Shown here in pieces: positions 34,670-51,917 of a DNA stretch of 59,473 bases. The stretch's first letter is position 1. The number at the start of each line of letters is the position of its first letter. The position numbers and the translations under genes are program-made. The DNA is from Sulfurimonas sp. GTDB taxonomy: Bacteria > Campylobacterota > Campylobacteria > Campylobacterales > Sulfurimonadaceae. The stretch is taken from assembly GCA_013791885.1 (NCBI GenBank), contig VMSZ01000012.1, forward strand, positions 1 to 59,473, written 5' to 3'. The notes below the pieces were generated by a model. It searched no databases, was not told where the DNA came from, and saw nothing but the letters and a program-made list of their open reading frames with translations.

Positions 34670-36124
34670 TTACCGAATCAAGTGAAAAATTTTATTCGTT
34701 AAATCTACGACATTTGCCTCACAAACAACATGGTCGAACGACAACTGCATTTTGTGTTTATAACTGACATCTCCTATGTAAAACGCATGCGTTTTTATTT
34801 TGTACTGATGATAAAACTCTTTATTTAATTGCCCTTCACTTATAAAACCATCCGTCAGTATCCAGACATAATCACTTGATATTAATAAATCTAGATTTTT
34901 GGACATTGTGTTGTTTAGGCCTTCTGCCCGGTAGCGTGGTACTATTCTCTCGATTACGCCATTAGCCAAAGGCATTTTCAGTTTGTCATATATTGGTCTA
35001 TAAAAATCAACGCCACTTAGTAACATAGTTGCGTTTATCACTCTCTTTTGAGCCATTTTGTCCAATACATCGATGATTAAGCGCATGCTTTGCATAGTAG
35101 TGTTCATTGAGGATGAAAGGTCTAGAATAATAGTTATATTTTTTTTCGTATTGCTATTTCTATCTTTTCTTTTAAATATTTTTTCACTTCCTGAGACTAT
35201 GTTTTTTATATGTAATTTTTTAGATGCAATAATAGTAGAAGAGGCTCTTTTTGGTTCTAAGAAGAGCGTTTTCATTTTAGCCAGTAGCTTATCTCTGAGT
35301 TTTGTATCAAAGGGAACTTGTAGAGGTTCTTTACTGAGCAAGGTTTCTTTGTATCTCGTACTTACAAAAAGAGGCTGACGTTTGTTCTCTCTTTTAGATT
35401 GGACAGCATCATCTATACTAAGCATATTCGGAAGTCCCTCTATAAGTTCATTAAATTTTTCTTCATTTATTGCTAAGTCACTCTCATCGGCAAATAAATA
35501 GCCTTTATCTTTTATGTCGTTGATGTATCCAGGAGTTTGGGGAAATCTTTTATACCAGGCATACATAATGTTAATAATATCCATATATGTCTCACAGGCA
35601 AGAACTTCTAGATAAAAATTATAAACACTCTCAAACAGGGGTGTCTTTAGAACTTTATTTCTATTTTCTGATTGAATGATGGAGAAAAATATCTCTATTG
35701 GGTTAGTAGCTTCTGCTTTGTCTTCATACATATTCCAATTGAACCATTTTTTTGTGTGGTGACGCATCTTTTCTTCTATGCGGGCATCTTCAAAGAGGTT
35801 AAAAAGTTTAAATGAGTAGTCTCTCATGTGGAGTTCTTCATTGACATTTGCAATGTTTTTTTCTGTCCAGATACTGTGTGCGAGCTCATGGTATAAAAAA
35901 GAACGCAGGTAGAGCGCTTTATCTTTCTCAGATGCATCAATAACAAGATTATTGAAGATATCTGCTCCTATAACTATTTGATGTTTCCCCTCATAAAAGC
36001 GCCAAGAAGCAGTTGCAAAATCTGCTTTGATGAATATCTCGTAGGCTTCTATCGGGAGCATTTCATCTATTTGCATAGACAGATAGAATCTGCGGGCGAG
36101 TTTTCCCATATTTAATTTATCCAT
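34670..36124 (-). CDS. CobT-like VWA protein with HELAH metalloprotease-like motif
   Basis: The 484-residue protein has an N-terminal region with HELAH at 79-83 and a following acidic helix (FNLFEDARIEEKM), a pattern seen in CobT-like and related VWA proteins. The C-terminal VWA domain has the MIDAS residues DLSSS at 335-339 and LTDGF with Asp near 425. Such proteins use a metal-bound VWA domain to dock a client to an AAA+ partner. Its start overlaps the stop of the AAA+ gene by 8 nt. Whether the HELAH site is a working peptidase is open. It is the last gene of the leftward half of the island. Confidence 0.8.
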   Translation of the reverse strand: MDKLNMGKLARRFYLSMQIDEMLPIEAYEIFIKADFATASWRFYEGKHQIVIGADIFNNLVIDASEKDKALYLRSFLYHELAHSIWTEKNIANVNEELHMRDYSFKLFNLFEDARIEEKMRHHTKKWFNWNMYEDKAEATNPIEIFFSIIQSENRNKVLKTPLFESVYNFYLEVLACETYMDIINIMYAWYKRFPQTPGYINDIKDKGYLFADESDLAINEEKFNELIEGLPNMLSIDDAVQSKRENKRQPLFVSTRYKETLLSKEPLQVPFDTKLRDKLLAKMKTLFLEPKRASSTIIASKKLHIKNIVSGSEKIFKRKDRNSNTKKNITIILDLSSSMNTTMQSMRLIIDVLDKMAQKRVINATMLLSGVDFYRPIYDKLKMPLANGVIERIVPRYRAEGLNNTMSKNLDLLISSDYVWILTDGFISEGQLNKEFYHQYKIKTHAFYIGDVSYKHKMQLSFDHVVCEANVVDLTNKIFHLIR

Positions 36125-37475
36125 ATACTTTACTCATGACTGCGTTTATGGCATTTATCTGTTCTGCGTTTGGATGTCCGTTGTATTCTCTCTCAACCCA
36201 TAAAAGCATAGAATCTTCAAGGATTGTTCTAATCTCATTTTCATCGTGTGCTAATTCTAAAGCCTCATTGAGATGGCGAATATTGACTAGTTTACTTAGG
36301 ATACTTGTGCTTCTGAGTCTTTGCATCTTAATGTAAAAAGTCATAAGTTTGTTCACTGACTCAAGAGAAAAATCTCTTTTGACAGAAGTTTTAATTAGAA
36401 TATTATGCAGTTCCTGTTCTGTTGTCTCTTTTCTTATAGGTTTAAAACGGTCTATAAGAGCTTCATCGATAGACTCAACTTCATAGCCGTCTCCAATATT
36501 TGTTGTGCCAATAACCCAAAGATTTTGAGTAGGTGCTTTTATAACTTCTTCAACAGCGATGCCATTCTCTGCGTTTAAGGCGCGTCCAGTTCTAAGAACA
36601 TACTCTCCATTAATAGGTGAAAGCGCCGAGATGAGTATGTTGAGTTCGCGTTTAGGTATACGAAGAATTTCATCTAAAATGAGTACTGTTTTTTCTCCGT
36701 CTTTAGCTTTTCGAAAAACTTCGCTGAGAGCTCCGTCTTTCCAAATGAGTTCTGCGTTTTTTTGCTGGATGTAATGCCCTAAAAAATCTATGGATTCAAA
36801 CTGCTCATGTCCACCGATGAAAACCTGAGTGAGATTCTGTTCTTTCGCCCATGTTGTAGCTGCATACGTTTTTCCACTCCCTTTGTCTCCTTCGAGCAAA
36901 ATGTGCTTTTTAAAAGCATATCTGTCGAACTTTATTTGTAAGTCGCTGCTGATACCAGAAGATTGAAGGTTATTGAGCGTGTCATAGTATTCGTAGTAAA
37001 GTTTGTCCAATACATCTTTTGGCAAATCACTTAAAAAATTGGCAATATGTGCGCATAGTTTATCTGCAAGCGTGTAGTTTTTTTGATTGAAGACACAAGA
37101 TTGACTTTTTGGAGTTTGATTGTAGCCGCTTTGCAACAGTGATAAAAATTTTTGATTTTTCTCTTTATGTGCTTTTGTGACTGCGTTTTGAATAAGAGAT
37201 TCAAGAGTATTTTGTGTCAAAGCTCCCTCAAGATAAGGATCTCCACATTTTAGTATGTACTCGTTATTGTAAAACGCAAGAAGCGTTACATAAGTAACTT
37301 TAGGATTGGCAGTCGCTGTATAAACACTGTAGTAGACAGTGTTAAATTCATGCTTATTCACCGCGGCAAATTTAGATATAAACGCAGAACAAACATATCC
37401 GCTGCGTTGCCATGTAAGACTTGGACTTTTGTCTGCTTGAGTTTCTATTAATGTTGTTAATTCTGCTCTTGTCAT
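36117..37475 (-). CDS. MoxR/CobS-like AAA+ ATPase
   Basis: The 452-residue ATPase has an island-specific N-terminal domain (about 1-180) and an AAA+ core with Walker A GDKGSGKT at 196-203, Walker B VLILDEI near 264-270, sensor 1 GTTN and the arginine in DEALIDRF. With the VWA protein encoded next it forms an AAA-VWA pair, known in chelatases, gas-vesicle and conflict systems for remodelling proteins. ATP-driven substrate remodelling is inferred. The promoter carries the island's shared box (37499-37530). Confidence 0.85.
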   Translation of the reverse strand: MTRAELTTLIETQADKSPSLTWQRSGYVCSAFISKFAAVNKHEFNTVYYSVYTATANPKVTYVTLLAFYNNEYILKCGDPYLEGALTQNTLESLIQNAVTKAHKEKNQKFLSLLQSGYNQTPKSQSCVFNQKNYTLADKLCAHIANFLSDLPKDVLDKLYYEYYDTLNNLQSSGISSDLQIKFDRYAFKKHILLEGDKGSGKTYAATTWAKEQNLTQVFIGGHEQFESIDFLGHYIQQKNAELIWKDGALSEVFRKAKDGEKTVLILDEILRIPKRELNILISALSPINGEYVLRTGRALNAENGIAVEEVIKAPTQNLWVIGTTNIGDGYEVESIDEALIDRFKPIRKETTEQELHNILIKTSVKRDFSLESVNKLMTFYIKMQRLRSTSILSKLVNIRHLNEALELAHDENEIRTILEDSMLLWVEREYNGHPNAEQINAINAVMSKVYG

Positions 37476-37633: not shown

Positions 37634-40600
37634 TTATTTCAGTTTTTCAATATTAGTGTCCTGCCCAACATTTCGAATGATAGGAAACTGATGTTGCACA
37701 TTGTTCTCTGGTTCTTGCAGTTTTTGTGAGAGTTCCACCACTGAAATCCAACCATCTCTGTCTTTATCTGTACTTTTATTGTCAAGTGCTTTTAAAATGT
37801 TGTTTGTAAAAACACCATGTTTTATTTTTGGATCCGCACTCTCAAACGCGAATGTACCTTTAGTCGTTGCCATAAGTACATGTACTCCTGATTGTTTAGC
37901 TAGTACAGAAGCTTTTGCATCATAAACAGATGACATAACATCACTTGCTTTTCCTGACTCACAAGCATCTATAATGAAGATTTGATCTAGCGCTGCAATA
38001 GACTGAATCTCTTGAAATAATTTTTCAAAGTTCAACCAGTTTTTTGCACTACTATTGTTCTGCGGGACGAGGTAGAGATTTCCTCGTATTGCTTTGCCAT
38101 GTGTTGAGATATAAAAAATAATCTTATCTTCCAGATGTGCTTTTTTCTTTATATCAGCTATAGCTTTTTGAATGTTTTGCTTCGTAACTTCTTTGCCTGT
38201 CAGAAGAGTAACTTCTGTTTTATACTCAGTGGCATTTTGTATTTTTTCTGCCATTGTTTTAGCGTCATTTTCTGAGAATCTTAGTGTCGATGCATTGGGA
38301 TGTTCAAACTCATTTACTCCAAGAACAAGTGCATAAATTTTTGGTGTATGTTTTTTTATTTTAGCATTGATTGTAATACTTTCTCTGATGCTTAAAACTG
38401 TATTTGTTTTATTGAATGCCTCGATTTCTATTGAATTCTTTCCAGCTTTAAGAGGCAGTATTACACTAAAAGAACCAGAATCATTGTTTGTACTTTGAGG
38501 CAATACATCACTCACAAGTTCTGAGTCATCAAGAGGTTTAGAAAGTGATTTCGAAAGACTTGTATCAAGATTTGCTAAGTACTCTTTTTGCCTTGATTTA
38601 GAAAGCGCATCAAGTTTGTTTTGTTGCAACTCCTCTTGCACATTACTTCCTTTACGTTTTACTTCACCTTCGCCGATTGTTTGAACAAGTTTACCTTCTT
38701 GATAGACTCTAATAAGTCCTACTCCACCATTATCAACCTGTGCTACATTAAATCCAATAGAAGCACTCTCCTTGTTCGTTTCAAGGGTATCTGACTTCAT
38801 TCCTATAAAACTTACTTTTGGAGGTGGATCTTTGAGAACATCTTGATATGTCATCCCGTTTGTATACTTGGAGATATCATTGCCTTGAAGTTTTAATTTC
38901 ACTAAGTCTGGTCTGAAAAAATGATCGTAGAGTTTTTCTATACCTATTTCCGTTGCTTCTTTAAAAGGACCATTGTTAAGGTGAAAATAGATACTATTTA
39001 GCGCATTAGTACTCTGAGTAAAATACCCCTCTTCAGTCCACATAGTCCAACTCTTATCCTCCGCGATAAAAAGATTGACTAAAGGGTAAATCACTTTATC
39101 TTTGCCAACTTTAGTTAAGTCCCAAATTTTTATAGTTTGATCGGCACTTCCACTTATAAGTCTATCCTCATCTACATCTATAGAAAATATATCAGATTTA
39201 TGACCATGAAGAGTTGTTACAATTTTTCCATTTTTATCATAAGCATAAAGTGTCCCAGAGCCACCACCGCTCACAACATAATCTTTATACCAACCATATG
39301 TTTTATGAAAAACTCCAGAAGCATTACCTCTATGAATCTCTGATATTTTTTTGCCATTTTGTTTAATATCAAGTCTACTATGATACTTACCTTTATCGGC
39401 ATCATCACTAACTGTGTATTCACCATTTACTTTAGAAAGAACTTTAAACTTTTCTATATCTTTAGAAAATGTATATGATTGAAGATTCATAGAGTATTCA
39501 AGTGAAGTTAGAATTCCATTTTTATCATTATGAGGAATGTTCCCCCAAGCGATATTGTTGCCTTGTATTGCAACTCTTGAGATAGTATTACCAACTCCTT
39601 TGATGAGTCTTTGTACTTTAGCAGTTTTTGCATTCCAAAGATAAATCTCATTGTTAGTTCCACCAACACTAACAGCCGTGTCATTATTTAGAAAATTAAC
39701 AGCTTTTGTAATTTCTGTATGTTTTTTAAAGCTTGTAGTTTTTGTGTAGTGTTTATCTACTTTAAATATTGAAACATAATATGGAAAATTACTCCCACCG
39801 GCTATTAAAAATTTTCCATCTTCAGAATACTTTAGTGCTACAGGTTCAGATTCAGTCTCTATTGTTTGTAAAAGATTTAAATCAAAATCTAAAATACGTA
39901 TCTTTCCAGCTTTCTGTTTACTATAAACACGAAGATCAGAAAGTGCGATATTACCACCATTTACTTCAGTTGTCGCTAAATAGGCTAAATCACCACCTAA
40001 ATATTTTTTTTGAACGAGCTTTTTCTTTTCTATATCGTAGAGTATTATTTTTCCATCAAATCCAGCTGTTACTGCAAAGTATTGATTTCCTTTTTTAATG
40101 ATTTTTGCTGCATACACTGTTTGAAATGACAGATGTTCCTTAATTGTATCAACTAAAGTGAAATTATTTTCTACATCCCATATATAGGAAGTTCCAGCAC
40201 TATTAGCAGATATAAGATATTTAGAATCTTTAGAAAATGATAAATCATTTACAATACTATTTATAGCAGCTAGGTTTAAAGTTTGAATTATTTTACCACT
40301 TTTGTAGTTGTATATTCTCACTTTTCCATTTTCACCAGGAAAAAATCCTCCAACAGCAAGATACTTATCATTTGTACTAAGTGCTATTGCAAAAATTTCA
40401 CCAAAAGAGCCATTGCCAATCTCTCCAAGAATTTTGCGTTTTTCTTCGCCGGTATTTATATCCCATACTCTTATAGTTTTATCGTTGCTTGCAGTTACAA
40501 GTTCAGATTGATCCTGTGTTACTAAAATATCTAATACTCCAGCAGTATGTCCTTTTGTATCAAGTTCCAGTGTTATATCAGGCGTTTTAGCTTTCATAAG

Positions 40601-40693
40601 CATTTTTACATGCTCAGAAATCTGTGGGCTGCCACAGCCAGCTAAAAAGACTATGACGGTCAAAAGTAAAAAATTAAGTTTTAAAAATTTCAA
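37634..40693 (-). CDS. Lipoprotein WD40-caspase (C14 peptidase)
   Basis: The 1019-residue protein begins with a lipoprotein signal (FLLLTVIVFLAGC, lipobox cysteine at 20), so it should be exported and lipid-anchored. WD40-type blades fill about 45-570 (VWDINTGEEK, IWDVENN, LWNAKTAK, GSADQTIKIWDL). A spacer follows, then a caspase-like domain (about 785-1000) with the catalytic pair His865 (YISTHGKA) and Cys911 (IIDACESGKA). A periplasmic caspase would be activated by envelope signals read by the propeller. The gene is preceded 20 nt upstream by a duplicated fragment of its own 3' end. It is oriented with the CHASE2 and AAA-VWA genes. Confidence 0.88.
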   Translation of the reverse strand: MKFLKLNFLLLTVIVFLAGCGSPQISEHVKMLMKAKTPDITLELDTKGHTAGVLDILVTQDQSELVTASNDKTIRVWDINTGEEKRKILGEIGNGSFGEIFAIALSTNDKYLAVGGFFPGENGKVRIYNYKSGKIIQTLNLAAINSIVNDLSFSKDSKYLISANSAGTSYIWDVENNFTLVDTIKEHLSFQTVYAAKIIKKGNQYFAVTAGFDGKIILYDIEKKKLVQKKYLGGDLAYLATTEVNGGNIALSDLRVYSKQKAGKIRILDFDLNLLQTIETESEPVALKYSEDGKFLIAGGSNFPYYVSIFKVDKHYTKTTSFKKHTEITKAVNFLNNDTAVSVGGTNNEIYLWNAKTAKVQRLIKGVGNTISRVAIQGNNIAWGNIPHNDKNGILTSLEYSMNLQSYTFSKDIEKFKVLSKVNGEYTVSDDADKGKYHSRLDIKQNGKKISEIHRGNASGVFHKTYGWYKDYVVSGGGSGTLYAYDKNGKIVTTLHGHKSDIFSIDVDEDRLISGSADQTIKIWDLTKVGKDKVIYPLVNLFIAEDKSWTMWTEEGYFTQSTNALNSIYFHLNNGPFKEATEIGIEKLYDHFFRPDLVKLKLQGNDISKYTNGMTYQDVLKDPPPKVSFIGMKSDTLETNKESASIGFNVAQVDNGGVGLIRVYQEGKLVQTIGEGEVKRKGSNVQEELQQNKLDALSKSRQKEYLANLDTSLSKSLSKPLDDSELVSDVLPQSTNNDSGSFSVILPLKAGKNSIEIEAFNKTNTVLSIRESITINAKIKKHTPKIYALVLGVNEFEHPNASTLRFSENDAKTMAEKIQNATEYKTEVTLLTGKEVTKQNIQKAIADIKKKAHLEDKIIFYISTHGKAIRGNLYLVPQNNSSAKNWLNFEKLFQEIQSIAALDQIFIIDACESGKASDVMSSVYDAKASVLAKQSGVHVLMATTKGTFAFESADPKIKHGVFTNNILKALDNKSTDKDRDGWISVVELSQKLQEPENNVQHQFPIIRNVGQDTNIEKLK

Positions 40694-41708: not shown

Positions 41709-43136
41709 TTATCGTTTTTTATTATTAAATTTTTTAAATAAAAAAACAATAGCTACATATGGTAACGACATAAGAGTAGGTATCATCCAATTAAACCATT
41801 CTTTGTAAAAAATAAATATACAATAAGAGATTCCCATAAGTATAATCATAGAGAAAGGTACAAACCATTTATCTTGGAAGTCATTTTTTTCTTGATCGGC
41901 ATTATCTTTAGCACACTTGGGACACTTTTTAGACTCTTTTTTTAAGTCAAAAAACATTATTTTTTTGACTATATTTTTTGAAAGTATAGAGGTGACAATT
42001 GCTTTTTTGACAGGGTAGAACATTCCTAAAAATATGTCTACTAAACTCACAACTATAAAAACAATGAAAATACTTAACCAAAGTGAAAAGCGCTTTAGCT
42101 TTCCATCTAAATAATAAAGAGTCATTAGTGCATTCGCATGCATCTCTACTCCACTGAGCCCATTACCAAACTTATCTATTCCAAAATTGTCAGAGCTAAG
42201 TTGGTGGGAGGGACCAACCATTATGACTGAATTTGCAAGTATCTCTTCATATATCATATCTAGAGGATAGTTAGCAGAAACACCGGATAAATTTTGCCAG
42301 TTACTCTGCCATGAAGTAAACTCTTTGTCTTCTTCGATATGTTTATTTTTAAAAATAATCCTATTTTCTATAAGACTTGCACGTTTTTGATGAAATGTTG
42401 TATTGATTTCCATATTTGTCTGCATTGTCTCGCTCCAAAGGGCAATGGATATATTAGGAAAAATTGTTGGCGTATTATTAACATCGTTATACGTTTCGTA
42501 TGGATAATATCTTCGGCTTATATTGTCACCTGCACTTGCTAACCCAACAGAGACGAATTTAATTTTTCCATTTTTTATGAGTTCCTGCAATCTTTCATCT
42601 TTATCATGGTAAATGTAGTTATAGTTAGAAGTCATAGGAAGGTATATGGTGTAAGAACGCTCTTTTTTTAATACATCTATAAGTACTTGATCACCATGAC
42701 TTTTCGTTATATTTAATGGATCACTGTAATAAGAAAGGTCATAATCTAAAAAAAGTGCTTTTGGTCTGTTTTGAGTGTCTACATCATCAGTCAAAGTGTC
42801 TACAGATGCAATAATTTCTGCCAGATATTCTCTTGGAAAGATATAGCCATAGCGTGTTTCATTATTTTCATCAAGTAGATTTTTAGATTTTAAATAGCTG
42901 TCATCTACCATGAGTAACAATATATTAGAAGAATCAGTTTGTGTTTGTTCTCTGGAAAGTATAATCCAACTCATGGTATCAAACGCACTGTCTTCAACGT
43001 TTGAACGGATAAACTCGATATAGTAAAACTGATAGACTAAAACGGTAAGTAAAGAGGCGAGAATACCCTTGAAGAGTGATTGTTTTAATTTCAAGATAAA
43101 CTGTTTCCCTATAATAAGTTGAGATAATAATAGCAT
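41709..43136 (-). CDS. CHASE2-domain membrane protein without output domain
   Basis: The 475-residue protein has an N-terminal membrane helix (about 22-40), a large extracytoplasmic CHASE2-type sensor domain (about 45-345), a helix near 350-370, a cytoplasmic segment with a CPKC zinc-ribbon half, and two more helices near the end. CHASE2 normally senses external cues for kinases or cyclases, but here no kinase, cyclase or GGDEF domain follows. It may signal to the caspase or secreted protein of the same operon. The ribosome site before the ATG at 43136 is weak; a TTG 14 codons later is an alternative. Confidence 0.78.
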   Translation of the reverse strand: MLLLSQLIIGKQFILKLKQSLFKGILASLLTVLVYQFYYIEFIRSNVEDSAFDTMSWIILSREQTQTDSSNILLLMVDDSYLKSKNLLDENNETRYGYIFPREYLAEIIASVDTLTDDVDTQNRPKALFLDYDLSYYSDPLNITKSHGDQVLIDVLKKERSYTIYLPMTSNYNYIYHDKDERLQELIKNGKIKFVSVGLASAGDNISRRYYPYETYNDVNNTPTIFPNISIALWSETMQTNMEINTTFHQKRASLIENRIIFKNKHIEEDKEFTSWQSNWQNLSGVSANYPLDMIYEEILANSVIMVGPSHQLSSDNFGIDKFGNGLSGVEMHANALMTLYYLDGKLKRFSLWLSIFIVFIVVSLVDIFLGMFYPVKKAIVTSILSKNIVKKIMFFDLKKESKKCPKCAKDNADQEKNDFQDKWFVPFSMIILMGISYCIFIFYKEWFNWMIPTLMSLPYVAIVFLFKKFNNKKR

Positions 43137-43246: not shown

Positions 43247-44866
43247 ATGGCAACTATGGGTTTTATACAGTCGGCTTCAGTAAATACAAAAATATCTTCC
43301 ATAATTGTTCCAGAAACTTTTACTCATTCTATTGCGTTTGGACAGACTGGATGCGGGAAGACAACGAGTTTTATCTATCCAAACCTTCAAGAAAGAATCA
43401 AAAACGGGCACGGTATTTTAGTGTATGATTATAAAGGAAAAGAGCACAGCAGTGTAAAATTTTTGGCTCAAGAAGCAGGGCGGCTCATAGATGTGATCGA
43501 GGTTGGCAAACCGTGGGGTGAGAGTATAAATCTTCTTGAAAATATGAACGAAGAGGAGCTGGATCTTTTTTTTGATAATGTTTTAAGTCATAATGATGAC
43601 AACAAATATTGGCACAACAGCGCAAAGTCGATGGGGCAGAGCGTTTTAAAAGTTTTAAAAGCCATTGAAGGATTTGCCAACTCAATGCAGATGGTGGATA
43701 AAAACTTTTATACTACTACGAAAGTACTAAACGCAGGGTACCCATATCCGCTCAAGAGAACATTTGCTTCTCTGGTAAAAGTGTGCAATACTTTTGAGAG
43801 CATTAGTAAGTTTGTTGAAAATCTGGATGCACTTCTTTTATATTCGCAGCAGTTGATTGTAAAAAGCCTAAAGAAAAAAGCCTCTGAAAATCCAGATATA
43901 AAGAGAGCTAGAGCAAGTTACACAAAACTTGTTAAGTCAAAAGAGAGACTTGGCGAATGTATCAATGGGACGCGAGACTCGTTGGAGAGTTTTGGAAAAG
44001 ATTCCAATGAAAACCTTACGCAAAACATTTTAGGTTCATTGATAGCTCCACTTTTGAGCCTCTCACAAAACCCATTTTTCAATACAAACAGTTTTGACAT
44101 CGTAAAGGCATTAAATGAAGGAAAAATTGTTGTAATTAACACTCAAGCTCTCTCAAACGCAGCTTTAGAGAGTTTAAACAATGTTGTGTTGAATGAACTC
44201 TCTCAAAGAACGAGAAGTTTAAGTATCAATCCTGTTTCTGTTTTTATAGATGAGGCGCAAAGAGTATTAAGCAAATCGACCGACTTGCCTGTGGATGTTC
44301 TGCGTGAAGCAAAGGTAGATATATTTTTGGCCACGCAAAACAGCGCTCTTTTAAAAAGCAGGTTAGGTGAGGAAAAGTTTGATGCACTCATGGGAAATCT
44401 TACTGCGAAGTTTTATTTTAAAAACTCCAAAGAAGAAGAGTCTCCTTCTGCATGTCTGCTGAACTCTTTTGCCACTTTTGAATACATCACGCATGAAGAT
44501 AACTATGAAAACTCACAAAGTAGCGAACCTGTGTATATCAGCATGTCCCAAAAGTTAGCAGTGGAGAAAATCTACCAAAAAAGACTCAATGTGTTAAGTG
44601 ATTTTGCCTATACAAATCGCAGAAAATCTATTGTTTTAGAGTATGTACCGCGTTTGTATAAAGAGAAAAAACTTTTGGCTATACATACACAAACACTCAA
44701 AGAGACTACTATCGAGTCGCAAAATAGAGAGTCTGTAAAACGTTTAGAGCGAAAGATAGATCTGCTTTTTGACACAGTATTAGCAGAGTTATATGAGGAC
44801 CAAGATCATGACTTAGAAGACGATTATGAGTTGGATAATGATTTTGAGATAGATATAGCTTCTTGA
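43247..44866 (+). CDS. HerA/VirD4-like P-loop ATPase
   Basis: The 539-residue protein has Walker A GQTGCGKTTS near residue 33-42 and Walker B VSVFIDEAQRVL with a following FLATQNSALL sensor segment, the layout of HerA/FtsK and VirD4/TraD ATPases. It lacks membrane helices, so it is not a typical coupling protein. The C-terminal tail is highly acidic. AAAGGATGCTTT precedes the ATG. It is first gene of the rightward half of the island and probably a hexameric DNA or protein motor. No relaxase or type IV secretion genes are nearby, which favours a defence-type role. Confidence 0.82.
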   Translation: MATMGFIQSASVNTKISSIIVPETFTHSIAFGQTGCGKTTSFIYPNLQERIKNGHGILVYDYKGKEHSSVKFLAQEAGRLIDVIEVGKPWGESINLLENMNEEELDLFFDNVLSHNDDNKYWHNSAKSMGQSVLKVLKAIEGFANSMQMVDKNFYTTTKVLNAGYPYPLKRTFASLVKVCNTFESISKFVENLDALLLYSQQLIVKSLKKKASENPDIKRARASYTKLVKSKERLGECINGTRDSLESFGKDSNENLTQNILGSLIAPLLSLSQNPFFNTNSFDIVKALNEGKIVVINTQALSNAALESLNNVVLNELSQRTRSLSINPVSVFIDEAQRVLSKSTDLPVDVLREAKVDIFLATQNSALLKSRLGEEKFDALMGNLTAKFYFKNSKEEESPSACLLNSFATFEYITHEDNYENSQSSEPVYISMSQKLAVEKIYQKRLNVLSDFAYTNRRKSIVLEYVPRLYKEKKLLAIHTQTLKETTIESQNRESVKRLERKIDLLFDTVLAELYEDQDHDLEDDYELDNDFEIDIAS

Positions 44867-44913: not shown

Positions 44914-45843
44914 ATGGTAGAAAGTAAACACGATAAATATTTTTCAAGAAATATGTTAATGATACAAAAGCTCTCACAAGAGGGTTCTGTAAGTGTCGCA
45001 GAATTAGCTGAAGAGTTTAACTGTGCTGTCAGAACAATTTATCGCGACATAGAAAAGCTTCACTTTTTTCCTTTAGAGCTAAACGCAGGAGTTGTCAGCA
45101 TAGCTGAAGGCTTTAGCCTAGGACAGTCTAATTTGCAAGAAAATGAGCTGCTTATTGCAGAGCTTGCGTTTAGTGCTATTGAAGATATAGATACAAGAAC
45201 ACATAAGCATATACAGGCTATTCGTTCTAAACTCTCTTATCCTCTTTTTTTTACGCCCTACACCATAAAAGCAGAAAACTTTGAACCCATCAAAATGGAC
45301 TCGGAACTTCTCAATAAAATGGAAGATGCCATCACTAAAAATAATGTCTCAAAAATCACAAGCCATACTATTACTTCTAGAGTAGAACCCTATAAAATCG
45401 TTGCGTTTGACGGTTTTTGGTACCTGCTCGCCAAAGATTTAAAAGACCAAAAAATAAAAACGTATCTGATTGCTCATGTAAGCGAGTTTCGTGCGACAAC
45501 TGAAGTTTTTGCAAAAACGAACATTGACAAAATCTTGGAAAATGTACACACTGCATGGTTTGCAGACGGTAATAGTTTTGAGGTAAAAATAAAAGTAAAA
45601 CCACAAATAGCACATTATTTTAAACTCAAAAAACATCTCACTTCTCAAAACATACTCAAAGAAAACAACGATGGTTCCCTCATTGTCAGTTTTGAGGTGA
45701 GTAGCGATGAAGATGTAGACAACCTTATAAAATCCTGGCTTCCACATATAGAAGTCATTAAACCAGCGAGATTTAGAAAAAAAATGATTTTAGAATTAGA
45801 GGAGTATGTGAAAGAGTTAAAGCAGTTACATTATGAGTTCTAG
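44914..45843 (+). CDS. WYL-domain transcription regulator
   Basis: The 309-residue regulator has an N-terminal winged helix (SVAELAEEFNCAVRTIYRDIEKL), a WYL domain with FDGFWYLLAKDL, and a C-terminal WCX-like dimer region (about 215-305). WYL proteins sense nucleotides or DNA damage and often control phage-defence islands (for example BrxR and CapW families). It lies 47 nt after the HerA-like gene, in the operon read from box B. It is the only DNA-binding regulator in the island and so the best candidate to bind the repeated 15-mer. Confidence 0.9.
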   Translation: MVESKHDKYFSRNMLMIQKLSQEGSVSVAELAEEFNCAVRTIYRDIEKLHFFPLELNAGVVSIAEGFSLGQSNLQENELLIAELAFSAIEDIDTRTHKHIQAIRSKLSYPLFFTPYTIKAENFEPIKMDSELLNKMEDAITKNNVSKITSHTITSRVEPYKIVAFDGFWYLLAKDLKDQKIKTYLIAHVSEFRATTEVFAKTNIDKILENVHTAWFADGNSFEVKIKVKPQIAHYFKLKKHLTSQNILKENNDGSLIVSFEVSSDEDVDNLIKSWLPHIEVIKPARFRKKMILELEEYVKELKQLHYEF

Positions 45844-46821: not shown

Positions 46822-47340
46822 ATGGCAATGACATTACAAGAGATAGCTAGCATCTTCGAAGAGTTAGAATTTGGACATCACTTAAAAGAAGAAGATTCTG
46901 TGATTATTTCTGCTGGCGGCTCTGCTGAGAACAGATTAGCATATTTTGTTAGAGCGAGAGAAGACGGAGAGCTTTTTGAGATGTCTGGGAGACTTCTTGA
47001 TGAAGAAACAAATGTAATAAGTGCAAAAAATCATAAATATGTAAATATTTTGATGGCATATCTCTTGCAGAGAAATAATGATACAAAGTTTGGCACATGG
47101 GAGTTTGATTCTTCAGATGGAACTATATCTATAAATATAGAGATACCATTAGAAGATAATCAATTAACAAAAGCGCAATTAAAACGTATTACTGGCTATA
47201 TGATAAGTTGTGGGACAGAAGCAGGAGAAATAAAACATATATTAGAACATGGAAAACTTCCTCTTGGTGGAGATGAAGCAGCAAAAAAAATTGCAGAACT
47301 AGAAGCAATGTTAGCACAACTTCAAGGAAATGGTATCTAA
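46822..47340 (+). CDS. YbjN-like (type III chaperone-fold) protein
   Basis: The 172-residue protein has a YbjN/type III secretion chaperone-like fold: an N-terminal helix, central strands, the helix VNILMAYLLQRNND, then FGTWEFDSSDGTISINIEIP and an amphipathic C-terminal helix. Such proteins bind clients or partner proteins. The ATG at 46822 is chosen because AAGGATTATAT precedes it and box C lies upstream. A perfect hairpin overlaps its stop codon and should reduce read-through to the protease gene. Confidence 0.7.
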   Translation: MAMTLQEIASIFEELEFGHHLKEEDSVIISAGGSAENRLAYFVRAREDGELFEMSGRLLDEETNVISAKNHKYVNILMAYLLQRNNDTKFGTWEFDSSDGTISINIEIPLEDNQLTKAQLKRITGYMISCGTEAGEIKHILEHGKLPLGGDEAAKKIAELEAMLAQLQGNGI

Positions 47341-47396: not shown

Positions 47397-50141
47397 TTGA
47401 GAACACTATTTTTAACGGCTAAAAGATTTGCTATAGATGCAAATGCAGAGCAGATTACACTTGAACACTTTAAAAAAGCTCTTAATACACTTGAGTTTGT
47501 AGACAATGACGCACAGAAATTGATATGTGAATATTTGGATGTAAAGCAAACATTACATCAGGGCTACTCAAAAGAAAACATTGAAAATGCAAGCAAGTAC
47601 GCAACAGTTGCGTTTGATGACAAGGTAAAAGAGTTTAAAACATTTTTAGAGTCTAACGGCTATGCACTGAATACAGTAGCAACAAGATTGTTTATAGAGA
47701 AGAAAAATTCACTTGCTGCGTTTAAAGAGAGCATTCGAAAGCTTGAAGAGTCTTTGGCATCACAAGTATTTGGTCAAGAGAGTGCTATAGAAGCAGTATG
47801 TGACAAGATGGTTGAAGCTAGTTACAACCTTGCATCAAACACTCCAAAAGCTATTTTCTTTTTTCTTGGGCCACCGGCTACAGGTAAAACAATGCTTGCA
47901 GAACTTATGGGCAAAGAGATTGAAGGTTATGATGGCTTTAAAATCTTCGACATGACACAGTTTACAGACGAAGAGTCCGGTCTTGGATTATTTGGTTCAG
48001 AAGCGGTTTATAAGGGTTCAGGTGAGGGGAAACTTACTAAGTATGTCAAAGAAAACCCAAAGTCGGTAATTGTTTTTGATGAGATAGAAAAAACACATCC
48101 AGGTGTCATGTCAAATTTTTTAATGATGCTCTCATCTGGAAAAGCTGAAGATACGCATACGGGCGAGACCATAGATTTCAAAGAGACTATCCTTGTATTT
48201 ACATCAAATTTAGGTTCAGAACTTTACAATAACCAAAGCTTTATAGACTTGATGAAGCAAAATCCATTGGAGGCGAACTCTACTATCATAGAAGCGATAG
48301 GCAGAGAAGAAAAACTTGTAAATGGCAGGATGGTAAAAGCGCTCTCGCCGGAGATGCTATCGCGTTTGTCGCAGGGTCAGATTGTACTTTTTAATAAACT
48401 TCCATATGAAGCACTTTTAAATATAGCCAAAAAACAAATCACCAAAATGCAAGACGGCTTTGTCAAAGAGTTTGGCATAAATATAGAGTATCAAGATTTT
48501 ACAAAGCTCGTCTCTTTGCTTATTTTGTCTTTGGCTCCGCAAATAGATGTACGAAAGATGAAAGCAAAACTGCCGGTGGCTCTATTTGACCTTGTGACAG
48601 ACCATATTCGAAGAAGTGATGACATCATAGAAAAAATAGTGTTCACACTTGATGAGGCCTCATCTCGAACAGTGCAGGAAGATTTGTTAAGTCTCGAGGC
48701 ACAAAAACAGACGAGTATGCTGCATACACTCTTTAGAAAAAATGAAACTTATTCTCATAAGGTGAGTACGAAGTTTGAGCATGGCGTTTTAAGCTTTGAA
48801 TTTTCAGCTTTAGCGAGAAAAAAACTCGCACGCTCTTCTGACTTTAGTGGAGAAGATGGTCTTGTCTTTGAAGTGCCAAACATCAGTTTCTCAAATGTGG
48901 CTGGACATGCCATGGCAAAAAAAAGACTCAGCGAGGTCATCAACATACTCAAAGACCCAAGTAAGCTTGATGCTTTTGATGTGAGTTTACCAAAAGGAAT
49001 GTTGCTTTTTGGAGTGCCTGGAACTGGAAAAACGATGCTTGCAAAAGCCTTTGCTAATGAAGCAGACCTTCCTTTCATACAAACTACGGGAAGCGAAATT
49101 TTAAGTCTTGAGCTTATGAAAAAAATCTTCAAAAAAGCAAGAGAATATGCGCCATCCATCATCTTCATAGATGAGATAGACGCCATCGGGTCAAGAAATG
49201 GAAGTGGACTCGACATTCTCATCAACCAGTTTTTAACAGAGCTCAATGGCTTCTCGGACAACTCCGAAGAACAAGTTTTCGTCATAGCCGCGACAAACCT
49301 CAAAGAAAAAATCGATCCGGCGATTTTACGTTCTGGTCGTATAGACCTGCATGTGGAGATAGACTCGCTAGACCGAGAAGCTCGCGAGTTTTTCATAAAC
49401 CAGATACTCAAAAAACCGACTTCAGGCGAGTTTGACAAAGAAAAACTCCTCACTTACACAGCCGGCATGACGGGAGCAGATTTACAAAAAGTATCTCGAG
49501 AAAGCGCTCTTTTCGTTTTTAGAAACAATTTGGAGTTTATTACCCAAGAGATACTCATAGAGCAGATAAATACTATCAAATACGGTGAGAGAATCACGCA
49601 TAAATCGATAGAAAAACTGATGGAGTCAACCGCTATTCATGAAGCTGGACACGCAGTAATTTCGAGAATATTGATGCCTGAAGTGAGAATAGAACAAATC
49701 ACAGTTGTTCCAAGAAATAATGCACTCGGATTTGTCTCTTATGATCAAGACGCAGATTTAAGTAATCTGACAAGACAAGAGATAAAAAATAAACTCTGCG
49801 TTGCGTTTGCAGGGCGTGAAGCACAGCTTAAAGAGTATGGAGAAGAGGGTTTTGACAGTGGAGCTTCAAGTGATTTAAACATGGCAACAAAGTATGCTCA
49901 CTACGCCATCGCAACACTTGGCATGGGTGAGAGTACAGGCTACATCAATGTATCTAATTTCAAAGAAGATTCTCTATTTGAAAAAGAGATAGAAGCAGAG
50001 CTTAAACTATGGCTGGGCGAAGCGCAGCAGAAGACAAAAGAGCTGGTAAAAAACAACTGGAACAAAATCTCCACACTCGCAAAGTTGCTACAGGAAAAAG
50101 AGATAGTCAATGAAGCTGAGCTTATAAATCTGATGCAATAA
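47397..50141 (+). CDS. Clp-type/FtsH-type double AAA+ metalloprotease fusion
   Basis: The 914-residue protein joins two unrelated unfoldases and a peptidase. After a Clp-N-like helical region (1-115) comes a ClpA/B-type AAA+ module with Walker A GPPATGKT (158-165) and Walker B VIVFDEIEK. It is followed by an FtsH-type AAA+ module with Walker A GVPGTGKT (539-546), IIFIDEIDAIGSR and the second region DPAILRSGRID. An M41 peptidase ends it with zinc site HEAGH (748-752) and the third ligand Asp826 in GASSDLNMATKYA. There are no membrane helices, unlike FtsH. It should be a soluble ATP-driven protease. It starts at a TTG with TAAGGA upstream. Confidence 0.88.
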   Translation: MRTLFLTAKRFAIDANAEQITLEHFKKALNTLEFVDNDAQKLICEYLDVKQTLHQGYSKENIENASKYATVAFDDKVKEFKTFLESNGYALNTVATRLFIEKKNSLAAFKESIRKLEESLASQVFGQESAIEAVCDKMVEASYNLASNTPKAIFFFLGPPATGKTMLAELMGKEIEGYDGFKIFDMTQFTDEESGLGLFGSEAVYKGSGEGKLTKYVKENPKSVIVFDEIEKTHPGVMSNFLMMLSSGKAEDTHTGETIDFKETILVFTSNLGSELYNNQSFIDLMKQNPLEANSTIIEAIGREEKLVNGRMVKALSPEMLSRLSQGQIVLFNKLPYEALLNIAKKQITKMQDGFVKEFGINIEYQDFTKLVSLLILSLAPQIDVRKMKAKLPVALFDLVTDHIRRSDDIIEKIVFTLDEASSRTVQEDLLSLEAQKQTSMLHTLFRKNETYSHKVSTKFEHGVLSFEFSALARKKLARSSDFSGEDGLVFEVPNISFSNVAGHAMAKKRLSEVINILKDPSKLDAFDVSLPKGMLLFGVPGTGKTMLAKAFANEADLPFIQTTGSEILSLELMKKIFKKAREYAPSIIFIDEIDAIGSRNGSGLDILINQFLTELNGFSDNSEEQVFVIAATNLKEKIDPAILRSGRIDLHVEIDSLDREAREFFINQILKKPTSGEFDKEKLLTYTAGMTGADLQKVSRESALFVFRNNLEFITQEILIEQINTIKYGERITHKSIEKLMESTAIHEAGHAVISRILMPEVRIEQITVVPRNNALGFVSYDQDADLSNLTRQEIKNKLCVAFAGREAQLKEYGEEGFDSGASSDLNMATKYAHYAIATLGMGESTGYINVSNFKEDSLFEKEIEAELKLWLGEAQQKTKELVKNNWNKISTLAKLLQEKEIVNEAELINLMQ

Positions 50142-50166: not shown

Positions 50167-51678
50167 ATGGCGATAAATAATAGCGGAGAAGGCAATAGTG
50201 AAGAAGATACTTATTTTATAACGAGCAATCCAAATAAATGGGTTTCGGAAGAAGCAGCTGAGGCAGATTACGAAGAATCAAAAGTGAAATTAGACGAAAT
50301 ACATTCTATATTGCATAAATATAAAAATATCAATGAATCATTAATTCGTGCAGTGCACAAAGGCGATTTACAAGAGACTCAACTCCTTCTAGGAATGGGA
50401 GCGAATCCAAAGATAAGTGATAGTGATGGAGTGACAGCATTAATGTATGCAGCGAGGCGAGGTAGTGTTGAAATCATTAAACTATTGGTGGATAGCGGAT
50501 CAAATATAAACGCACAGGACAAGAAAGGATTAACGGCATTAATGCATGCCATTGTAAAGGGATTTGTTGAATCGATAAAAGTGCTACTCAAGAGCGGTGC
50601 TGATGTACAAGTGCTCGACAAAGATGGCTATACGGCTTTAACGCATGCATTAAAGCTCCAAAACGGCTCTGAAATAATAAAGTTTTTTCCAGGCAATGAG
50701 GTTGATATTGACAAGAGGGATGCAAATGGTCACACAGCTTTGATGATTGCTGGATGGAATGGAAATCTTGAAGAGATAAGACGATTGTTAAGCTTGGGCG
50801 CTGATATAAATGCGAGGGAAACTTTTTCAAAAGATTGTCCCGAGCGCAACTCGTTGATGCTTGCAATACAAAACGGGAAAACCGAAGCGGTAAAACTTTT
50901 GTTGGAGAGTGGAGCTGACATAAAAGCTATTGATTACGAGGGCAGAAGCGTCTTGGAGTACGCGTTAGATAATGAAGACTTTTCAATAGTGGAAATATTG
51001 GTAAATAGAGGGATAGATATAAATCAGAAAGACAAACATGGAACTACATGGTTAATCAATGCGGCAGTATTGGGAAATGTGGATATGGCCAGAATATTAT
51101 TGGACTATGGCGTCGATGTAAATGAAAAATGTTTGGAAGGGTGGTCGGCGTTAATGTTCTCTTCTTCCAAAGGCGATAAAAATCTTCTGCAACTTTTGAT
51201 AGACAGAGGTGCAGATGTTGAAGTAAGTAGCGATGATGGCGAAAAAGCTTTATTGCTGGCCTCTTCTGAAGGCCATGAAGAAGTAGTCGAGCTTCTACTA
51301 GCCAATGGAGCGGATATAAAGGCTAGAAATTATCTTAGAATGTCCGCGTTTACGAAAGCTGTAATGAACGAAAAATTCATTGTCGCAAAATTGCTACTGG
51401 AATATGGCGCGGATGTAAATGAAAAACTCATTGATGGACAGAGTATACTGAGCTGGGCAATAAATCAGAATAGAGTTGAGATGGTGGAGTTTTTTCTTGA
51501 AAATGACGCCAGAATGGAAGACAAAGACAAGAGCGGAAAAACGCCGCTTTTGTTGGCTTCGGAATTAGGACATAAAAGCATAGTTGACATGTTGATACTC
51601 AAAGGGGCAAATACTTCAGCGAGAGATGGAGACGGCAATGGGATGGATCAATACCTGTTTGACAACGACATGATATAG
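50167..51678 (+). CDS. Ankyrin-repeat protein
   Basis: The 503-residue protein has a short N-terminal region and about twelve ankyrin repeats from residue 60 to the end (for example DGVTALMYAARRGSVEIIKL, NGHTALMIAGWNGNLEEI). It has no signal peptide or enzymatic domain. Ankyrin arrays bind proteins, so it could be the adaptor or a decoy target of the protease encoded 25 nt upstream. AAAAGGGG precedes the ATG. The repeats are regular, which suggests recent selection for binding. Confidence 0.9.
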   Translation: MAINNSGEGNSEEDTYFITSNPNKWVSEEAAEADYEESKVKLDEIHSILHKYKNINESLIRAVHKGDLQETQLLLGMGANPKISDSDGVTALMYAARRGSVEIIKLLVDSGSNINAQDKKGLTALMHAIVKGFVESIKVLLKSGADVQVLDKDGYTALTHALKLQNGSEIIKFFPGNEVDIDKRDANGHTALMIAGWNGNLEEIRRLLSLGADINARETFSKDCPERNSLMLAIQNGKTEAVKLLLESGADIKAIDYEGRSVLEYALDNEDFSIVEILVNRGIDINQKDKHGTTWLINAAVLGNVDMARILLDYGVDVNEKCLEGWSALMFSSSKGDKNLLQLLIDRGADVEVSSDDGEKALLLASSEGHEEVVELLLANGADIKARNYLRMSAFTKAVMNEKFIVAKLLLEYGADVNEKLIDGQSILSWAINQNRVEMVEFFLENDARMEDKDKSGKTPLLLASELGHKSIVDMLILKGANTSARDGDGNGMDQYLFDNDMI

Positions 51679-51740: not shown

Positions 51741-51917
51741 TTGACCAACTCAAAAACATTCAGACTATTTATAAGTTCAACATTCAACGACTTCCGTAGA
51801 GAGCGTGAAGTTTTACAAACAAAAGTATTTCCACATGCCAAAGAGTACGCTTCAAGCAAAGGATACACCTTCCAACCCAAGTTACTTGAATTTATAAGGC
51901 CTAATGTTTCTTTATAA
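51741..51917 (+). pseudogene. DUF4062 N-terminal stub
   Basis: A 58-codon frame from a TTG (AAAAGGAATCCCC upstream) reads MTNSKTFRLFISSTFNDFRR and then EREVLQTKVFPHAKEY, the characteristic start of DUF4062 domains that front STAND/NACHT NTPases. After GYTFQP the sequence leaves the family and stops. It is therefore a truncated remnant of a larger conflict protein. The flanks 51679-51740 and 51918-52063 hold no other gene. Confidence 0.75.

Follow-up and report, generated by a model that had tools for sequence, protein, structure and literature searches.

AAA+ proteases are grouped by the way in which a motor is paired with a peptidase, and a soluble chain that combines a Clp motor, an FtsH motor and an M41 metallopeptidase falls outside the usual classes. 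A Clp ATPase and an FtsH do occur together in the transmissible stress-tolerance locus of ClpK and FtsH, with their genes side by side on mobile DNA; there, however, they are separate proteins, the FtsH being a membrane protein and the Clp a full double-AAA enzyme. In the IetAS system, the partner of the antiphage ATPase IetA is IetS, a subtilase. The nearest published relative that we found is the FtsH component of the MoxR-vWA ternary conflict systems, which has two FtsH-type AAA domains, the first of them inactive (Kaur et al. 2020, PMC7159879). The Swarozyc preprint (PMC13174449) describes DUF4062 as a TIR-like NADase that is activated by phage and acts in abortive phage defence.

The window analysed here, 59,473 nucleotides of a Sulfurimonas sp. 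contig (VMSZ01000012.1), encodes at 47397..50141 on the forward strand a soluble AAA+, AAA+, M41 metalloprotease of 914 residues with all catalytic sites intact. The literature that we searched, in which few subscription papers were covered, holds no description of the domain order Clp-type AAA+, FtsH-type AAA+, M41. With the MoxR-vWA ternary systems (PMC7159879) the locus shares a conflict-system setting and an FtsH-related protein with two AAA domains, whereas no M41 domain is mentioned there and here the first AAA domain is ClpB-type, has intact motifs and shares its chain with an M41 domain. No MoxR or vWA genes were found among the scanned neighbours of the protease loci. The second AAA module is similar to IetA (3.1e-30; 107 bits), but this score lies far below the family cut-off of 510 and the metalloprotease is present in cis rather than encoded by a separate partner gene. 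The likeness to Swarozyc lies in the neighbourhood, as DUF4062 proteins are recurrent neighbours of the protease and a DUF4062 stub is present in the window; the description of that system, in its available part, nevertheless names no AAA+ protease, and the proteins next to the present protease are of the DUF4062-NACHT-repeat type, with no more than the stub left in the window.

The original prediction, made from the DNA letters, held that two motors of different clades and a metalloprotease are fused in a single soluble chain. The gene is one unbroken frame, with a TTG start and an AAGGA Shine-Dalgarno sequence about 7 nt upstream. Its first 103 residues (47397..47705, +) form a small domain of predicted helices that can be aligned only in clade A (defined below) and loci L017 and L047; Pfam gives no Clp_N match in this region, and a single hhalign comparison with Clp_N, covering half a Clp_N repeat, returned a probability of 4.6 (E 0.009). 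Residues 104–463 (47706..48785, +) make up a ClpA/B NBD2-type AAA+ module (AAA_2/PF07724 at 150–325, 1.2e-31), so the first module is indeed AAA+, with Walker A at the predicted position of 158–165 (GPPATGKT) and, with roles assigned by homology, pore-loop Tyr205, Walker B D228/E229, sensor-1 N271, arginine finger R323 and sensor-2 R386. The FtsH-type AAA+ module follows at residues 489–731 or thereabouts (48861..49590, +; AAA/PF00004 at 535–656, 4.9e-43), as judged also from alignment with the organism's own FtsH and the family, and carries its Walker A where predicted, at 539–546 (GVPGTGKT), together with DE 592–593, sensor-1 N634 and arginine fingers R645/R648. The M41 metallopeptidase domain (residues 743–910; 49623..50126, +; Peptidase_M41/PF01434, 5.4e-27) has the intact zinc site foreseen from the sequence, HEAGH at 748–752 with D826 as third ligand.

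Rather than two separate genes, independent genomes and metagenome bins contain orthologues of the same architecture and of about 914 residues at 71–74% identity (L004, L005, L006 and L046), and these full-length proteins rule out an assembly or frameshift artefact. The single-chain fusion is real and neither chance nor sequencing error. The pN/pS of the protein against its orthologues is 0.24–0.26, and we therefore consider the whole fusion to have been under purifying selection. As a separate observation, both pN and pS of the M41 region (49614–50138) against L004 are clearly below those of the rest of the gene (pN 0.054 versus 0.18 overall), a pattern that suggests recombination inside the gene.

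A comparison with the parent families shows how far the protein departs from each. With FtsH it shares an AAA module with the second region of homology (SRH), including Walker A and B and the two SRH arginines, an HExxH...D zinc site and a C-terminal M41 domain. It differs in having no transmembrane or periplasmic part, a deletion of pore loop 1 and an additional Clp-type motor in front. The highest Kyte-Doolittle mean over any 19 residues is 1.19, compared with 2.94 in the FtsH of the same genome, in agreement with the predicted absence of a membrane anchor; besides that normal FtsH, the host genome encodes a degenerate FtsH-like protein. Against the NCBIfam FtsH model TIGR01241 the protein scores 311 bits, below the curated cut-off of 600. 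We class it as an AAA+ protease variant and not as an FtsH because it lacks both the membrane part and the pore loop. With ClpA, ClpB and ClpC (Hsp100) it shares the NBD2-type motor of residues 104–463, with its pore tyrosine, arginine finger and sensor 2; however, NBD1 and the M-domain are missing, only one Clp-type module is present, and the peptidase, which belongs to another class, is part of the same chain. A ClpP-docking IGF/IGL loop was not found in the lid region of the Clp-type module. Identification as an ordinary FtsH or ClpB was rejected on family cut-offs and architecture.

An AlphaFold2 model of the monomer, built with 18 family members as input, has a mean pLDDT of 82.6 and a pTM of 0.52, the latter leaving the relative placement of its two halves unsure. 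With VIA-align, residues 109–463 match ClpB NBD2 (4fd2; Z 26.5, 3.0 Å over 300 residues) and residues 486–914 match A. aeolicus FtsH (Z 23.7); further matches of the FtsH half are Ycf2-FtsHi (Z 24) and, by Foldseek, AFG3L2. These fold matches lead us to conclude that both motors are of the types originally named. The earlier interpretation is upheld as regards the two motor clades, the M41 site and the missing anchor, while its suggestion of stacked rings enclosing an internal peptidase is a plausible candidate assembly.

Our analysis goes beyond the original prediction in showing that the architecture belongs to a family, several clades of which have lost a motor or the protease site. In the one pattern scan for close relatives that we ran (84,980 species), proteins with all or nearly all of the architecture came from Campylobacterota only. 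Within a sample of that phylum, the wider family is present in 39 of 397 genomes (about 10%) and 12 of 68 genera at E <= 1e-100, eight of the 39 genomes having the AAA-M41 half only. In a tree of the FtsH half, the family stands apart from canonical FtsH (support 100/100) and contains a clade A, comprising the window protein with L004, L005, L006 and L046, a clade B with a dead protease, and a clade C together with shortened relatives of it, each likewise at 100/100. L017, L047, L055 and L163/L164 fall near clade A, with the placement of L047 unsure. One candidate from the genome of another phylum (L010) was rejected as a normal membrane FtsH.

The clades differ in what they keep. Both Walker A/B sets, the arginine fingers and the zinc site with its third ligand are retained in clade A, L047, L055, L163 and L164, with GPPSTGKT as the second-motor Walker A of one L163 protein. 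In clade B the first Walker B reads DA or DS instead of DE, and HEAGH has become YEAGR, YESGR or REASH (YEAGH in L058). This clade (L007, L008, L011 and L056–L061) is a natural pseudoprotease group of unchanged architecture, and many small ORFs surround its genes. Clade C has lost the Walker motifs of the first motor and, in many members, part of those of the second, but has kept HEAGH or HEAAH; its neighbours are core genes such as those for lipoate ligase, hisS and flgA. Five loci of one Campylobacterota family (L152–L156) contain the AAA-M41 half only, about 450 residues long in four of the five; in these the first motor is absent and the Walker motifs are degenerate, with HEAAH intact. A stand-alone M41-domain ORF of 210 residues was also seen at L009:4909-7464, directly 3' of a VirD4-like ATPase gene, with 54% identity to residues 697–909.

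Every member except L047 lacks pore loop 1 in the FtsH-type ring (FVG in FtsH itself), the gap being some 6–7 residues relative to L047 and to the organism's own FtsH. The pore aromatic of the Clp-type ring, Tyr205 in the window protein, is Tyr or Trp in clades A and B and in the other intact members, and has been lost in clade C, which therefore has neither pore loop. The absence of an aromatic pore loop 1 from the FtsH-type ring means that the two motors are not equivalent, and it follows that the Clp-type ring probably does the pulling. Judging from these motif columns, the first ring is probably the gripping ring throughout the intact group.

No full-length homologue was found among phage records, and all plasmid matches listed with more than 80% coverage are separate clpK and ftsH genes, adjacent in the best of them; on these grounds a phage or plasmid origin was rejected. 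Several large phages (Microcystis and Pseudomonas jumbo phages among records H21–H28) do encode an FtsH-type AAA-M41 protein with 32–33% identity to the FtsH half.

The neighbourhood of the protease is conserved as well, with a YbjN-fold partner and DUF4062-NACHT and TIR genes. A gene for a 172-residue protein with a YbjN or type III secretion chaperone fold (46822..47340, +) ends 56 bp upstream of the protease gene, and a YbjN-fold gene occupies the same position at six loci, namely all of clade A (the window, L004, L005, L006 and L046) and L047. Of the 151 genomes in the host's family, three have it, and each of these carries a clade A protease; no YbjN-like gene was found in viral contigs. 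The model of the 172-residue protein (pLDDT 77) matches DR_1245 (3.0e-4), ExsC, SchA, CesT and E. coli YbjN, and its PF10722 hit (E 0.0067) is below the cut-off. Type III secretion chaperones bind unfolded segments of their client proteins. Because of this property of the fold, it seems likely from the modelled structure that the YbjN-fold protein is a substrate adaptor of the protease.

DUF4062-NACHT genes lie near the intact protease at L004 (genome G105, two copies), L046 (G055), L047 (G009), L055 (G190), L163 (G221) and L164 (G246). At L004 two DUF4062-NACHT-TPR genes stand directly 3' of the protease; L046 has TIR, DUF4062-NACHT-ankyrin and two TrkA-N/RyR-type genes; L047 has DUF4062-NACHT-TPR, TIR and protein kinase genes; L055 has DUF4062 and TrkA-N genes in overlapping order with the protease; and L163 and L164 have DUF4062, TIR and TrkA-N-type genes. 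Four genomes (G009, G055, G221 and G246) have TIR genes a short way from the intact protease. Among the 50 family-carrying genomes, which share ancestry and are not phylogenetically independent, DUF4062 is present in 7 of 8 with an intact member, compared with 2 of the 42 whose members are degenerate or divergent (Fisher 2.8e-6), and within 5 kb of the protease in 6 of 8 versus 0 of 42. Counted by lineage, with the lineages drawn by hand, the association is about 4/4 versus 0/6 (p 0.005). The protease nevertheless appears to be an optional module of DUF4062-NACHT systems, since, of the 11 sampled genomes of the phylum that carry a long DUF4062-NACHT-type gene, 7 do without it. At six further loci (L180, L183, L186, L187, L188 and L190) DUF4062-NACHT is repeatedly paired with a TrkA-N-type gene, some with RyR, with no such protease alongside, and the pair looks like an immune core of two genes. 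Because defence genes gather in islands, neighbourhood alone is no proof of joint action.

In the window, a gene for a 503-residue ankyrin-repeat protein (50167..51678, +) begins 25 bp downstream of the protease and likely shares its operon. Beyond it, 1.6 kb from the protease, lies the remnant of a DUF4062-NACHT gene, a TIR-like NADase sensor/effector of which the first 46 codons are left (51741..51878, +). These are 93% identical to the second L004 gene (L004 14351-) and 91% identical to that of L047, after which similarity stops, the remnant is fused to unrelated sequence and the reading ends soon after codon 46. The remainder of the gene was not found elsewhere in the host genome, and a profile search of the whole genome, which missed the 46-codon stub, returned no DUF4062; an intact DUF4062 gene is absent from the host genome, the intact copies being those in the cassettes of its relatives. 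We therefore regard the window locus as the same cassette with a truncated NADase partner.

On the other side of the protease, a VirD4/TraG-like ATPase of 539 residues (43247..44866, +) has homologues adjoining the same cassette in L047 and L009, a loose association, and a WYL-domain transcriptional regulator (44914..45843, +) stands between it and the cassette; in L187 and L191, homologues grouped with the regulator by clustering adjoin DUF4062 genes or lie near them. Further away, positions 37634–40693 encode a 1019-residue protein that has a caspase-like domain towards the C-terminal end (PADLOC caspase, 1.7e-15) and repeat-like similarity (HEAT-ARM, 5e-9), possibly another defence gene of the same island. 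An AAA_5 ATPase and a 484-residue protein of no assigned family (34670–37475) form a conserved pair that also lies near the protease in L005 and L047, and whose arrangement may be McrBC-like. A CHASE2-domain protein with no second recognised domain is encoded at 41709–43136.

Taken together, we favour, with moderate confidence, a model in which the protein is a soluble, adaptor-fed, two-motor protease that serves as the proteolytic module of NLR-like DUF4062-NACHT NADase immune cassettes, its NADase partner having been lost here. In this model, the YbjN-fold partner would bind client proteins and hand them to the protease, and the upper, Clp-type ring would grip and unfold them through its pore tyrosine. 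The lower, FtsH-type ring would hydrolyse ATP but, having no gripping loop of its own, may serve as a conduit, passive or allosteric in nature, through which the chain would reach the M41 chamber and be cut at its zinc site. The clients would probably be proteins of the cassettes, in which DUF4062-NACHT NADases stand with TIR and TrkA-N/RyR partners. In the host genome, truncation of the DUF4062 partner would have left the protease, the adaptor and the ankyrin protein behind. It is most likely that the protease controls the lethal NADase and sensor proteins or their inhibitors, an effector role being less likely; we prefer a regulator to an executioner because the cassettes already hold lethal NADases, although our data do not separate the two.

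The executioner alternative, in which a cassette sensor activates the protease on infection so that host or phage proteins are destroyed and growth stops, is in our view unlikely. The DUF4062/TIR neighbourhood fits it equally well, and proteases are known in bacterial immunity, as in nuclease-protease pairs (PMC12799240); on the other hand, a lethal NADase (DUF4062), often with TIR, is already at hand in these cassettes, and an adaptor-fed unfoldase would be an unusual executioner. We hold equally doubtful a role in general protein quality control, with a ClpB/FtsH hybrid unfolding and degrading aggregated or damaged cytosolic protein in the manner of ClpK and FtsH. Its ClpB and FtsH domain parentage, the adjacent clpK and ftsH genes that are the best of the plasmid matches listed, and the position of the divergent clade C beside core genes (lipoate ligase, hisS and flgA) all point that way, but the intact clade is sporadic and comes with its own adaptor-like gene and immune neighbours, and clade C, the very one found in core neighbourhoods, retains neither the motor motifs of AAA1 nor a pore loop in either ring.

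That the rings instead take oligomers apart, with M41 as a structural ring of a non-proteolytic remodelling machine, seems improbable. Clade B retains the architecture without a zinc site, and the plant Ycf2-FtsHi motors, also among our structural matches, offer a parallel; HEAGH and the third ligand are, however, kept in all of clade A and in L047, L055, L163 and L164. A somewhat less unlikely reading concerns the window gene itself, which could be an orphan, decaying or neutral since the loss of its DUF4062 partner. The reduction of that gene to 46 codons, with the remainder gone from the genome, speaks for this reading, yet the frames of the protease, the adaptor and the ankyrin protein are intact and the catalytic residues are all present.

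Returning to the cassette-bound protease, we judge the chances evenly balanced that it represents an undescribed branch of AAA+ proteases, recruited in Campylobacterota, along with a YbjN-fold adaptor of its own, as the arm that controls NLR-like DUF4062-NACHT/TIR/RyR NADase immunity by proteolysis. The 914-residue protein offers a compact test of how labour is divided between two motors when only one has a gripping loop, and the family, with members that have a dead protease, a dead first motor or no first motor at all, provides a natural loss series with which to dissect the parts. The protease family and its neighbours suggest a new kind of protease module for bacterial immunity, and if its role in DUF4062-NACHT immunity is true, adaptor-fed, ATP-driven proteolysis would join the controls that bacteria place on lethal NADase sensors.
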